In this document: positions 13,998-43,485 of the stretch, in pieces | Numbering within the stretch: the first letter of the stretch is position 1 | How the letters are laid out: every line of letters starts with the position of its first letter | NCBI RefSeq assembly: GCF_022201045.2 | Contig: NC_068557.1 | Span: 2,046,001-2,110,000, forward strand | Direction of reading: 5' to 3' | Length of the DNA: 64,000 bases | Origin: Citrus sinensis | Taxonomy: Eukaryota; Streptophyta; Magnoliopsida; Sapindales; Rutaceae | The notes under the pieces: generated by a model | Database searches by the model: none | What the model saw: only the letters and a program-made list of their open reading frames with translations | Told to the model about the DNA's origin: nothing | Made by a program: the position numbers and the translations under genes

Positions 13998-15461
13998 ATG
14001 GCACAGAGGAAAGAAACCATAGTTTTGTTTCCATTCATGGCACAAGGCCATATAATCCCTTTCCTGGCATTAGCCCTTCACTTAGAGAAAACAAATAAAT
14101 ACACCATAACTTTTGTTAACACCCCTTTGAACCTCAGGAAACTCAAATCTTCTGTCCCTCAAAACTCCTCCATTAACCTTCTTGAAATTCCCTTCGATAG
14201 CATAGATCATAATCTCCCTCCTTGTACTGAGAACACAGATTCTGTTCCTTATCATCTAGTTTCCAAACTCATTGAGGCTACTTTATCGTTTAAGCCCCAT
14301 TTCAAGAAACTCGTCAATGATCTTATTGATGAACAAAATGGCTATAAACCACTTTGTATCATCACAGATATGTTCTTTGGTTGGTGCAAAGAGATAGCAC
14401 AAGAATATGGTATTTTTCATGCGATATTTATAGGAGGTGGTGGATTTGGCTTTGCTTGTTACTACTCTCTGTGGGTAAACTTGCCTCATCGGAACATGGA
14501 TTCTGATGAATGTGTATTGCCTGATTTTCCTGAAGCTTCTACAATTCATGCAACTCAGCTGGCAGATTATCTAAGAGTTGCGGATGGAAGTGATTCTTTT
14601 TCAGCGATTCTACAGAAAGTGCTTCCTCAGTGGATGAATGCCGATGGAATTTTGGTTAACACAGTTGAGGAACTTGACAAGATTGGACTGATGTATTTCA
14701 AGAGAAAATTTGGCCGGTCGGTTTGGCCAATAGGACCTGTTCTTTTGTCCACAGAAAACAGAGGTGGGGCTGGAAAAGAGTACGGAATCTCCACAGAGTT
14801 GTGTAAAAAATGGCTCGATACCAAGCCGTACACTTCAGTTCTGTATGTATCATTTGGTTCACAAAACACAATAGCCACATCACAAATGATGCAATTGGCA
14901 ATGGCTTTAGAGGCTAGTGGCAAGAATTTCATTTGGGTTGTTAGGCCTCCGATTGGCTTTGACATAAATTCTGAGTTTAAAGCCAACGAGTGGCTGCCTT
15001 GAGGATTCGAAGAAAGAATCAAATGTTCAGGACAAGGGCTAGTGGTACACAAATGGGCACCTCAGGTGGAGATTTTATCTCATAGGTCTGTATCTGTATT
15101 TTTGAGTCACTGCGGATGGAACTCTGTACTTGAAGCTTTAAGTCATGGGGTGCCGATAATAGGGTGGCCATTGGCAGCAGAGCAGTTTTACAATTCTAAG
15201 CTGTTGGAAGAAGAGATTGGGGTTTGTGTGGAGGTAGCTAGAGGGAAAAGCAGTGAGGTTCTGAAAAAAGACATAGCGGCAAAAATTGAGTTGGTGATGA
15301 ATGAGACTGAGAAAGGAATAGAGTTGAGAAAGAATGCTTATGAGGTTAGGGAGATTATTAAGAATGCCTTTAAAAATGAAGAAAATTTTCAGGGTTCTTC
15401 AGTGAAAGCCATGAATCAATTCCTGAATGCTGCATCGATGGTGAAGGAGACAATTAATTGA
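13998..15461 (+). pseudogene. UGT-3: UGT92A1-like gene with a single in-frame TGA
   Basis: From the ATG at 13998 the frame is open for 334 codons, hits TGA at 15000-15002 (codon 335), then stays open in the same frame to the normal stop at 15459-15461 (488 codons in all). UGT-4 and UGT-6 have CGA (Arg) at the stop position, so a single C-to-T change at a CpG explains it. Both halves look otherwise healthy: 'AQGHIIPF' with the catalytic His, 'CIITDMFFGW', and a complete PSPG box in the downstream half (WAPQVEIL...HCGWNS...AEQ). A truncated 334-aa product would lack the donor-binding domain. Either a very young pseudogene or a null allele; stop-codon readthrough cannot be judged from sequence. 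Confidence 0.88.
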
Positions 15462-39225: not shown

Positions 39226-39835
39226 ACAGTTAGAAGAATTTAGCGTACGTTAAGAATTAATCTTAAGCTAATACTATTGGTTCAAACAGGTACATATAAT
39301 AAAGAGAAAATTAAAAAGAAAATTAATAATAATAATAATGCTGCAGACAGGAACTCTGTGAAACTTTCCTAAGCGACGTGTCAAAAATTTGACCGCATTA
39401 CTCCACCCATCGACCCCAACCAATCCAAGGTTAGTGTGAGGGGAATTCGAACTTTTAATCTCTTTGAATTCAATTAAACAACTGAGTCCTCAGAATTTTC
39501 TCAAAATTATTTACTCAGCCCGCCGAGCAATAAATTATACGTTGTCCTCTTGACCTCTTCGATAATGATGGTATACAAATTGATTTGCTGAACTCGGTTT
39601 GTTTTATCTCTCTATTTCTATTCTTATGTCAGCTAACAAACAGGGATGGTGCTGCCGATTCCATTAAAGGGCCAACTGCAGGACACCTCACTCGTACTAT
39701 TTTCCAACCCACTCACTCACACTTTTTCAGATGGAAAACAGGGATGATTAAATTGTTCAATAATACTTCATAGACCTCTTAACTTTCCTCCAGAAAAATT
39801 TAAGAATCATACCCACTCCCCTTATCTACCACTTA
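39226..39835. other. Left half of the UGT-2'/UGT-3' head-to-head promoter
   Basis: Homologous to about 13,277-13,955 of block A. Ends at the CACTA-like insertion. Confidence 0.6.
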
Positions 39836-40157
39836 TATACTACAACAAATAATAGTATTACCGGCGAGATATTTCCGAGAGTTTTATTTACTTTTGGTAC
39901 TAAATATTTTTTTTTGCAAAGGTGAAAAAGAACTATCAAAAAAACATTAAAAAACTATTAGCTTTTTCAAGAGCAAATTGCTATCGGTAATAAATAATAC
40001 ACCAGTCGGAAGTACAACTATACAAGGGCATAATTAATGATAAATCTTCTCAAGTTCGACCTAATGTCAGTGATCTGTTAAAAATAAATGAGTGGCTAAT
40101 TAAATTATGCACTGGCTCTGCTAATTAATAAAGAATCATAAGTAAATAACTAATCAC

Positions 40158-40411
40158 CTGGCCAGTTGGTCCCCTCTTTATTCTTAATCTAGAAACATCG
40201 ACTCCACTGAACTTCATGTTACTAACAAATAATTGGCCTTGTTGATCGTCTCCATACGCCCCGATCAGCCCACAAGGAACCCCAAAGCCTACGCTAAGCC
40301 CTCGAATAGTATTGGTGACACTACCTCCAGCTATTGTCTTTATAGGAGAGGCTCATCCAGAATGTGGGTTTTCACTTCACTCAATATATGCTCAAGCTCT
40401 TCAATTGCAAC
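40158..40411 (-). pseudogene. Captured exon of a pfkB-type carbohydrate kinase
   Basis: On the minus strand 254 bp are bounded by a splice acceptor (TGTAG before GTTGCAATTG) and a donor (CCAG followed by GTGATTAG). Translation gives 'VAIEELEHILSEVKTHILDE', then after a 1-bp deletion 'GGSVTNTIRGLSVGFG', 'LIGAYGDDQQGQLFVSNM' and 'SRLRIKRGPTG'. These are pfkB/ribokinase-family features (substrate-binding GG and GxxGxDxxG-like segments). Both splice sites survive, so genomic DNA rather than mRNA was copied. The frameshift makes the fragment non-coding. Confidence 0.75.
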
Positions 40412-40484
40412 CTACACAACATTTTTAATTTCGATTTTTTTTCTAGCCACAAAGAATTGCTTATGAAAAAAAATAATAATTAAT

Positions 40485-40503
40485 ATATATATATATATAT
40501 ATA
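40485..40503. repeat. (TA)n microsatellite
   Basis: About 19 bp of pure TA repeat within the CACTA-like element. Confidence 0.8.
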
Positions 40504-40636
40504 AATAGAAAAAAGAAATCAAGTAGAATGAAATTGTTAAAAATAAATGAGTAGCACATGTTGCAGCTGCTGGAGAATTTAATAACAATGTTCCTTATCT
40601 GAGAGTGCACAATGTGGCTGAAATTAAGGTAACTAA

Positions 40637-41433
40637 TGTTGATGCGAGATTCCGGTTCTCCTCGTTCTACGATCAGGATCTCTGCTCGATCAACTTCGTC
40701 ACTACCAGGAGGTCTCCTCGCCAGGCTTCTTCTCCGGAAGTCCCTGCGTACACAGATAAGTCAGAGTACGCCGGTTGTTTTCCCGGCGCAAACCCTCCGA
40801 CGCTCAAGTCAGATATGAAGGTTCGGGAAAAGCTTGCCACAGGTCTTATGGCGTTTCTTGTGGTTTTCTCCCCTTTTCTCAAGAATGCCAACCCTTTTAC
40901 CTTCGTTGGCTACCTTTTTATAGGCTTCCTCTGAATCTCAGTCCTCCGCTCTTTTCGAGACGGTATGGGACTTCAACTGCTGCGTTATGGGCAAAACATG
41001 GGATCTAGCGTGTTATGCCACGGTTCAGGGGAAAGCGTGGCTGCCACGGCTCTGTGAGACCTTGCGTGTTACGCCACGGTTCGGGGGAAAGTGTGGCTGT
41101 CATGGCTCTGTGAGATCTTGCGTGTTACGTCGCGGTTCTGGGGAAAGCGTGGCTGTTGTGCCTAGATTCTCGTGCTGGAGAGCACGTCTTGCCAACTGCC
41201 GTCGACCGGGTCTCCTCGCCTCTCGATCTCTAGCCGGAATGGCCTCATGCCTTTTATAGGAATTGGCCTCGCGGACGACAACATCGTGGACGAGCAGGAT
41301 GTTTCTGATCCTGTTCTTCCACGCGCTAGGCTTTAACGGAACACATCGGTTCGCAGAACTCCGCCATCAGATGTCTGCTCGTCATTCCTGGTCCCTTCGA
41401 CGCATTTGTCCCAAACAGTATCCCTCCCAAACA
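40637..41433. mobile_element. GC-rich solo LTR (797 bp)
   Basis: Starts TGTTGATGCG and ends CCCAAACA, flanked by a perfect 5-bp duplication ACTAA (40632-40636, 41434-41438). It is visibly richer in G and C than everything around it. A TATA-like TATAAAAG sits on the minus strand near 41,251-41,258, suggesting minus orientation. There is no second LTR or internal region, as after LTR-LTR recombination. Open frames inside it are not genes. It lies nested within the captured-gene DNA. Confidence 0.8.
41008..41165. repeat. 56-bp minisatellite within the solo LTR
   Basis: Nearly three copies of a 56-bp unit begin at 41008, 41064 and 41120 (GCGTGTTA(T/C)G...CACGGTTC...GGGGAAAG). Differences between units are mostly C/T. 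Confidence 0.85.
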
Positions 41434-43148
41434 ACTAACATATTATTTTCTGTTTGGATTCTAATTACTGAATATTATTTGAGTCTACGTTCAAAACCAT
41501 GCATGCTGAGTGTTGGATAATCAGGAAAATAATACTACTATGTTTCAATTTTTTATTTTTTTTTGGGTTAATTTATATGCATATATAATTTGACAGCTGA
41601 TGAGTTTTCAGTTGAGCTAGCTGAAGGGCTTGCTTTTGTTGCTGCTCGTGATGATGAATCCAAACTCTTTATGGTAGTTTTACTCTCTTTCAAGGTTTGT
41701 GAACAATTTATACTTGGCGATGATTGATTCTTCAAGTAGCAATTATTTCATACTCCTTGTTTGGCATTCTTCATTGTATTATAGTTTATGGAGAAAGAAG
41801 TGAAGAGGTTGAAAAGAATAGTGAAGCTTGCACTTGGAAACTCAAGTGCACAAGAATCACCTCTTACGTTACAGATTGCTAATTTTCATTTACTTTCAAG
41901 CTTTTTAAAAATTTTTTTTTTCACTTTCTAATCCATAGAAACTAACCATAACAGGGTTTTGTAACTGATAGACCAGATTACCGCAAGCACATAAATCCTC
42001 TAATGGCAGTGTTGCATTTTTCGGCCTCTCTAAATTTATAGGTTAGCAATACTTGCTAAATTTAGAATCCAACTCCTGCTGTTGACTTCAAATATTAGCA
42101 TATTTTCTTATTGATACAAAATATTGCTCTAATGATTATTATCCATTCCAGTCTCATATTTTGTCAGGCTTCTTAAGCATATCTTGGATATAATACTTAT
42201 GCTTAATTCTATACAAACTGATTGTCGAAATAACATACTATTATACTAGTTACTGATTTGATAATTTACTGATTAATATTTCTTCGTTGATCTAGGATAT
42301 TATTTGGTATACTAATGATGATGTGGGGATGGAGCAGATTCATATTTCTTGATTCATATAGGATATTATTTGGTCGAATGAAGATGATGATGGGAATGAA
42401 GAAGATGAGGTAGAGGCAAACGTAGGTCTCAGAGACTAAAGAACATGTGTTGGAGGATGCTTGAAATAATTCATGCTATGAAATCATTTTGCGTATACAT
42501 TTGAGATTTTTTTTAAAAAATATACTATTAAAATTGATTATGTTGTACTGTTGATTGGTGAATGCAATTTCTATAAATTTTTGAAATTAATGAAGCTATA
42601 TTTAATGTATTTTGCGTGTTGCTATTGCTATTTTGTTGATTATGTTGCATTGGTAATACAGATACTTAAAAAGAATAAAAGTAAAAAGCGTAATAAATAA
42701 TAATATTAAATAAATTAAATGGGTCACTAAATAAAAAAGAAGAAGCATATTTCCAGCGTGTTTCTTGCATTTTCGAGGGTAAATTATGGTTGGAATAGTA
42801 ATCATTTGTGTTCTCCAGCCTCATTTCCAAGGGAAGTTAATGCGATCTCGAAGGGCAAATGCAATTGGAAATATGTAATTTTTGGTTTTATAGAATCATT
42901 TTCGAGGGCATTTGATGTCATTTCTGACGGCACGGCTATTGAAAATAATTTTTTTCTCTAACGACCCATTGAAAGTTGTACTTTTTCGATGCAACTTAAT
43001 ACAACGACGGTCGACGGCATGATTTTCTCAAAAATAAGTTTTTCCAAAAGTGTTTGTGTATTTCCAAGAGTATTTACCCTTAGAAATAACCGTTTTTCTT
43101 TTAGTGTTAATCCTCTACTTTTTCTCCTTCTGATCCTCATCAACAACA

Positions 43149-43485
43149 ATGGCACAGAGGAAAGAAACCATAGTTTTGTTTCCATTCATGGCACAAGGTC
43201 ATTTAATCCCTTTCCTGGAATTAGCCCTTCACCTAGAGAAAACAAATAAATGCACCATAACTTTTGTTAACACCCCTTTGAACCTCAATAAACTCAAACC
43301 TTCTCTCCCTCAAAATTCCTCCATTAACCTTTTTGAAATTCCCTTCCATAGCATAGATCATAATCTCCCTCCTTGTACTGAAAAGTGAAAACACTGATTC
43401 TGTTCCTCATCATCTAGTTTCCAAACTCATTGAAGTTACTTTATCGTTTAAGCCCCATTTCAAGAAACTCGTCAATGATCTTATT
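43149..43485 (+). pseudogene. UGT-3': 5' fragment of a UGT92A1-like gene
   Basis: The ATG at 43149 opens 79 codons closely matching UGT-3 ('MAQRKETIVLFPFMAQGH'). An extra AAGTG then shifts the frame to a stop at 43386-43388. Homology ends near 43,485, where the sequence jumps to the equivalent of 17,100 in block A. The junction shares TTATT with both parents, so about 2.8 kb were lost by a microhomology deletion. The CACTA-like element ends only 42 bp before the ATG. Confidence 0.88.

Follow-up and report, generated by a model that had tools for sequence, protein, structure and literature searches.

An exon-bearing Pack-CACTA candidate with four host gene sources upstream of a UGT copy in Citrus sinensis

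Several described transposon systems resemble the element that we report here, and the comparisons below draw on portions of the published accounts. Pack-CACTA (Pack-TYPE) elements of Arabidopsis, maize and rice are non-autonomous CACTA elements in which host fragments, sometimes from several loci, occupy a central position (PMC8903248). Tgm-Express1, a CACTA element of soybean, carries five host gene fragments, unrelated to one another, in which introns and splice sites are preserved (PMC1947982). Captured gene pieces are likewise found in the CACTA transduplications of grapevine, such as Cactavine-5, and the authors raise antisense transcripts for one captured piece (PMC2528002). CACTAs of Chenopodium also carry several host fragments, in a report that mentions transposases of Citrus clementina (PMC8978399). 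Among animals, single-copy Pack-TIRs combine single-copy capture with short overlaps at their junctions, for which gap filling is the explanation offered (PMC8277862).

The citrus element lies within a 64,000-nt stretch of contig 2 (2046001-2110000), here called the window, and positions given without a contig number are those of the window; the genome searched comprises 299.7 Mb in 11 contigs. In contrast to the Pack-TYPE elements as characterized in the consulted sections of PMC8903248, its junctions around a pfkB kinase segment look more like template switching than like fusion of neighbours, and it shares a cassette of captured sequence with a second CACTA-like family. Whereas Tgm-Express1 lies within a flower-colour gene, in one of its introns, and gives rise to chimeric transcripts (PMC1947982), the citrus element sits upstream of a broken UGT copy. 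The grapevine elements hold other genes, and layering comparable to that described below is not seen in the relevant parts of that account (PMC2528002); the Pack-TIRs belong to animals and to other superfamilies (PMC8277862). A literature search combining citrus, CACTA and gene capture returned no title naming such an element, and the word "citrus" is absent from the main text of PMC8903248. CACTAs that carry multiple fragments with splice sites are already known, and the element in the window is a well-documented example with an unusually complete set of sources.

A TTA-flanked insertion and its CACTA family

Positions 39836-43106 (3271 bp) align as a discrete insertion in block B of the window, and the paired block A is empty at this site. 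Block A reads ...CTACCAC-TTA-ATCC... with a single TTA, and alignment of block B minus the insert to block A places a TTA on both sides of the insert. The flanks of the two blocks are identical at 266/276 positions upstream and 354/372 positions downstream of the insert. The original prediction, made from the letters of the window, had described an insertion missing from block A and flanked by a TTA duplication, and both statements agree with this alignment. Because the TTA site is clean, the simplest reading of these sequences is that the insert entered block B later than the block duplication, as had also been proposed. The outer features are as follows.

39833..39835, no strand: left target-site duplication TTA, from the empty-site alignment with block A
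39836..40126, plus strand: CACTA left arm, with the terminal repeat TACTACAACAAA starting at 39838 and an extra TA at 39836-39837
41739..43106, plus strand: CACTA right arm, the family's own and shared with many of its members, with the right end ...TTTTAGTG
43107..43109, no strand: right target-site duplication TTA, from the empty-site alignment with block A

On the opposite strand, the right end reads CACTAAAAGAAA and starts with CACTA. The left terminal repeat begins TACTA; its first base differs from CACTA, and the same is true of a family member on contig 7. Most simply, the extra TA at the left end would represent one unit of TA slippage. A single subterminal motif, picked by eye, has counts of 1+0 in the left 301 bp, 3+1 in the right 400 bp and 0+0 in the middle 2570 bp, with 2+1 in the rest of the window.

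Both arms recur in the genome. The left arm matches contig 8, 7393914-7394203, at 88% and contig 3, 28565652-28565868, at 91%; used as a query, the left part gave 25 matching stretches including itself, six of which consist only of a (TA)n-rich stretch (all 22 candidates scored). For the right part (41434-43106), at least 71 matching stretches including itself were found in the best 40 of 54 candidates scored, many of them reaching the very end. The right arm common to the family begins at about position 305 of this query and includes pieces 3′ of a TNP2 stretch at contig 9, 16548551. Scanning 31 fetched loci for the end motifs, we found three other two-ended elements, all with matching 3-bp duplications.

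Contig 8, 7383247-7394204: duplication AAT, both ends found; sister of the element in the window
Contig 7, 19428176-19468223: duplication AAC, both ends found
Contig 8, 9782445-9793240: duplication CTT, both ends found

Four further candidate pairs have degenerate ends: one, at 24.46 Mb on contig 7, is flanked by TGA on one side and TAA on the other, which are not identical, and three have no placeable right end. Matching 3-bp duplications are therefore present in three of the four other members with both ends readable. The ends of the contig 8 sister read CACTACAACAAA / CACTACAAGAAA. The contig 7 member at 19428176, which has the TACTACAACAAA end, is about 40 kb long and nested. Reading of this member covered both ends plus about 9 kb on the left; near the left end it encodes a TNP2 domain (PF02992, E 4e-93), a transposase-associated domain (PF13963) and DUF4218 (PF13960). 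In the 7 kb read from the 9.78-Mb member on contig 8, the two longest frames carry a copia-type gag and no TNP2. TNP2 is common in this genome, exceeding the cut-off in at least 150 places (best 150 of 454 candidates scored).

Because its family has matching 3-bp duplications and a TNP2-carrying member, the insert is very probably a non-autonomous Pack-CACTA with the anatomy given here, and a TNP2 transposase acting in trans would have moved it. No transposase of its own was found in the insert, either by frame length or by a Pfam search of six frames. The predicted CACTA-type identity is thus upheld by the CACTA right end, the 3-bp duplication and the relatives with the same ends that encode TNP2. 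Two observations had been named as counting against it, namely end sequences without other copies bearing TTA-type 3-bp duplications and gene fragments lying contiguously elsewhere; instead, three of the four readable members have matching 3-bp duplications and the donors lie on four other contigs.

Several family loci show additional features. Within the region of the contig 8 sister (7382801-7394800), an LTR retrotransposon of about 7.7 kb is nested, and its two LTRs are 98% identical. Elsewhere on contig 8 (6269301-6279200), left-arm and partial right-arm matches occur together with a FAR1/MULE-type transposase frame on the opposite strand (PF10551, PF03101), which may be either a nested MULE or a captured gene. 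On contig 5, two related right halves, at 596584-598293 and 601891-603119, are separated by about 5 kb, point the same way and are 93% alike over 2.3 kb. We rejected two separate insertions for this pair, as the two stay similar for about 1 kb beyond the right end; judged by its sequence, the pair is probably a segmental duplication.

Sources of the plus-strand fragments

Between the arms, the plus strand carries two exon pieces separated by an intron, which itself contains a solo LTR. The slash in the first line marks the splice position.

40553..40628, plus strand: exon X, a receptor-like kinase (RLK) exon piece ending at the intact 5′ splice site AAG/GTAACT
40629..41596, plus strand: hybrid intron with the solo LTR inside; 5′ part from intron 1 of a gene at contig 6, 13400629, and 3′ end from a SEC14-like gene
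40632..40636, no strand: left 5-bp duplication ACTAA of the solo LTR, from reading the flank
40637..41433, plus strand: solo LTR of 797 bp, TG...CA, flanked by the ACTAA 5-bp duplication
41434..41438, no strand: right 5-bp duplication ACTAA of the solo LTR, from reading the flank
41597..41694, plus strand: exon Y, a SEC14/CRAL-TRIO exon (ADEFSVELAEGLAFVAARDDESK...), preceded by the 3′ splice site TTGACAG and followed by GT

Exon X aligns to an RLK gene at 26.087 Mb on contig 8 with 60/77 identical positions (score 60, against at most 29 for 300 simulated sequences), and this donor contains a kinase domain (PF07714). At the DNA level, exon X occurs elsewhere only in sister elements on contigs 8 and 5 (3/3 candidates scored). 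At the protein level, the search hit five places weakly (best E 0.126), all within a contig 8 cluster at 25.97-26.09 Mb, and the one cluster member that was read has a receptor-kinase exon with the sequence pattern of exon X. From its GT onward, the intron matches intron 1 of the contig 6 gene at 63/78 positions (score 76 versus 33 for 300 simulated sequences). Exon Y aligns to a SEC14-like gene at contig 1, 21366156-21366283 (102/119; score 129 versus 35, again with 300 simulated sequences), and PF00650 (CRAL-TRIO) is found in this donor. Because its 5′ part matches the contig 6 gene and its 3′ end the SEC14 gene, the intron has ends from two genes. A Pfam search of exon X, exon Y and two downstream pieces found no family above the cut-off, and neither did one of the first exon of the contig 6 gene, which we presume to resemble plant FUSC-type membrane proteins.

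These alignments support the earlier description of spliced-looking fragments with preserved splice sites, as the sites at exons X and Y are intact and there is more than one source. They do not support its assignment of 40561-42060 to one other gene. A single donor for this stretch is ruled out by the three sources: it comprises an RLK exon, an intron piece from the contig 6 gene and a SEC14 exon, after which the transposon right arm follows.

The solo LTR, which the original prediction had missed, makes up 797 of the 3271 bp, about a quarter of the insertion, and lies inside the hybrid intron 8 nt past the 5′ splice site. It has at least 39 other full-length places in the genome at 98-100% identity (rounded; best 40 of 834 candidates scored), and among the matches listed at least 14 pairs of copies are spaced 10.2-11.6 kb apart. 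A complete element at contig 3, 35590739-35602493, has AACAT on both sides. Because the seven copies read differ from the solo LTR at only 3 to 5 of 797 positions, its insertion appears to be young.

Intact splice sites at exons X and Y, together with sisters on contigs 8 and 5 that keep the exon order of the element in the window, could be taken to mean that the element is a young host gene expressing a useful spliced RLK-SEC14 chimera. We find this barely credible, as no stop-to-stop frame in the insert exceeds 127 aa, six of its frames have no Pfam match at E 0.1 and its pfkB piece is frameshifted. Moreover, in the contig 8 sister exon X has lost 2 nt and exon Y has gained 5 nt, and in the window the solo LTR lies just behind the 5′ splice site.

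The intron and the SEC14 exon are also present at three loci outside this family, L066, L067 and L068 (contigs 5, 3 and 1), where the preceding exon comes from an O-fucosyltransferase gene, a copy of which with most of its exons lies on contig 5 at 31.722-31.724 Mb. The end sequence CACTACCAGAAAA is found in L067 and L068 but not in L066, and eight further places match the final 338 bp of the L068 query in full. Because of this end and its repeated copies, we take the second family to be CACTA-like. Before the intron, L068 retains an 11-nt RLK-like remnant, CTGATGTTGAG, where the RLK gene reads CTGATATTGAG (compared by eye). These sequences may indicate that the cassette, consisting of the end of the RLK exon, the intron from the second gene and the SEC14 exons, arose a single time and was later transferred between two CACTA families that differ in their ends, a reading that we put forward tentatively and at less than even confidence. 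Under it, and with equal reserve, each family would have its own first exon, RLK in the family of the window element and O-fucosyltransferase in the other. Chance or independent origin of the shared cassette is a possible alternative.

We also considered the O-fucosyltransferase gene as a donor of the element in the window and rejected it, as its exon was found only in the second family and the shared part begins after it. The last exon of this gene is found at contig 1, 14290224; contig 3, 31098755; contig 5, 24776250; contig 6, 2911613; contig 7, 18503693; and contig 8, 13975101, and several of these sites are in the second family. Another exon of the gene is listed near the contig 7 site; the remaining five have none listed nearby.

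Acquisition of the pfkB segment

The left half of the element contains a segment of a pfkB kinase gene on the minus strand, flanked by filler and by two copies of a short repeat.

40076..40093, plus strand: left-arm copy of the 18-bp repeat TGTTAAAAATAAATGAGT, the first of two
40127..40479, minus strand: captured pfkB kinase segment, with all of exon 2 (about 40158-40411) flanked by the end of intron 1 and the beginning of intron 2
40480..40534, no strand: low-complexity filler of 55 nt with a (TA)n run, not contiguous with pfkB at the donor
40535..40552, plus strand: 18-bp repeat TGTTAAAAATAAATGAGT again, directly followed by the RLK exon piece

The donor is a pfkB gene at contig 5, 36818943-36819290, which is identical to the segment at 332/345 positions (score 594, against at most 37 for 300 simulated sequences) and was the only other place found in a genome search with all 22 candidates scored. 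The donor resembles an ordinary gene in the 3.3 kb read, and its first three exons together match PF00294; relative to it, the captured segment has a 1-nt frameshifting deletion and an 8-nt insertion. A minus-strand pfkB exon captured from elsewhere, as originally predicted, is therefore confirmed, and the predicted minimum of two source loci is exceeded, with host donors or their relatives on contigs 5, 8, 6 and 1. Because the divergence of the segment (13/345) is close to that of the flanking blocks (10/276 and 18/372), captures before and after the insertion are indistinguishable.

The contig 8 sister (7383247-7394204) shares both arms, the RLK exon, the intron and the SEC14 exon with the element in the window and has no pfkB, and none of the other family copies found has the pfkB piece. 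Between the left arm and exon X of this sister lies a stretch of about 1.2 kb (excluding the nested retrotransposon) that is absent from the element in the window. The contig 5 sister retains most of this stretch; the DNA read from it showed no left arm. In the window, the 18-bp repeat stands on both sides of the pfkB patch; a repeat of this kind arose in none of 1000 first-order Markov simulations. As judged by eye from the alignments, the junctions overlap by AA at the left of pfkB, by AGT between repeat and exon X, and by TGAGG between RLK exon and intron.

These features suggest a layered history, in which the ancestor would already have been patched with the RLK exon, the intron piece and the SEC14 exon. 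Only in the element of the window would a break or excision gap then have arisen in the left half, and the DNA synthesis closing it would have jumped between templates at short matches, copying 353 bp of the pfkB gene and some low-complexity filler. Next, 18 bp of the left arm would have been copied again before rejoining at the RLK exon, with loss of the roughly 1.2 kb that the contig 8 sister kept. Finally, an LTR retrotransposon would have entered the hybrid intron, where recombination left a solo LTR. We lean towards pfkB capture by such gap filling with template switching, because it explains the pfkB segment, the filler, the re-copied 18 nt and the lost stretch all at once. Single-copy captures in animals are mostly ascribed to the same combination of gap filling and template switching in the parts of PMC8277862 on which we draw.

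A different mechanism, the Catoni model of tandem fusion, has been proposed for Pack-CACTA elements in the corresponding portions of PMC8903248 and PMC13317346. Here, two neighbouring copies with pfkB DNA between them would have been deprived of their inner ends and transposed together as a single element, taking the intervening DNA along. This would fit the internal position of the captured piece and the stretch of left arm that is repeated after it, as two overlapping partial copies would give. We nevertheless consider it unlikely for this element. The filler at 40480-40534 is not adjacent to pfkB at the donor, so that the captured stretch is non-contiguous, and none of the four CACTA start motifs searched for was found in the 3.3-kb donor locus. 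In addition, the second partial copy would need an internal deletion of its own of about 1.2 kb.

The UGT neighbour and implications

Downstream of the insert lies a UGT copy, the pair of which in the window is at 13998.

43149..43388, plus strand: downstream UGT copy, 79 codons followed by TGA; broken

The copy at 13998 is open for 334 codons, and we assume that both copies are shorter than the usual plant UGT. The insert ends 42 bp before the start codon of the downstream copy, so that the predicted location stands; its functional weight is small, with a UGT frame of only 79 codons. This short distance is the argument for a reading in which the insert alters the regulation of the UGT cluster, driving or silencing the adjacent UGT. 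We regard this as very unlikely, given where the UGT frame stops and that its likeness to block A fades at about 43485. Because the UGT copy stops so early, any effect of the insert on it appears unlikely from the sequence. Any plus-strand transcript of the element would include pfkB exon 2 in antisense orientation, which is a testable guess.

The locus presents a layered case in which a CACTA transposon has shuffled exons; each of the four host fragments has a located source, and the empty site lies in the same window. Its single-copy pfkB patch and re-copied 18-bp piece of left arm can help to decide whether plant Pack elements gain DNA by gap filling or by tandem fusion. Furthermore, the cassette shared with the second family points to a possible movement of captured modules from one transposon family to another; if this is true, such families would trade ready-made, splice-competent exon modules instead of capturing genes afresh.
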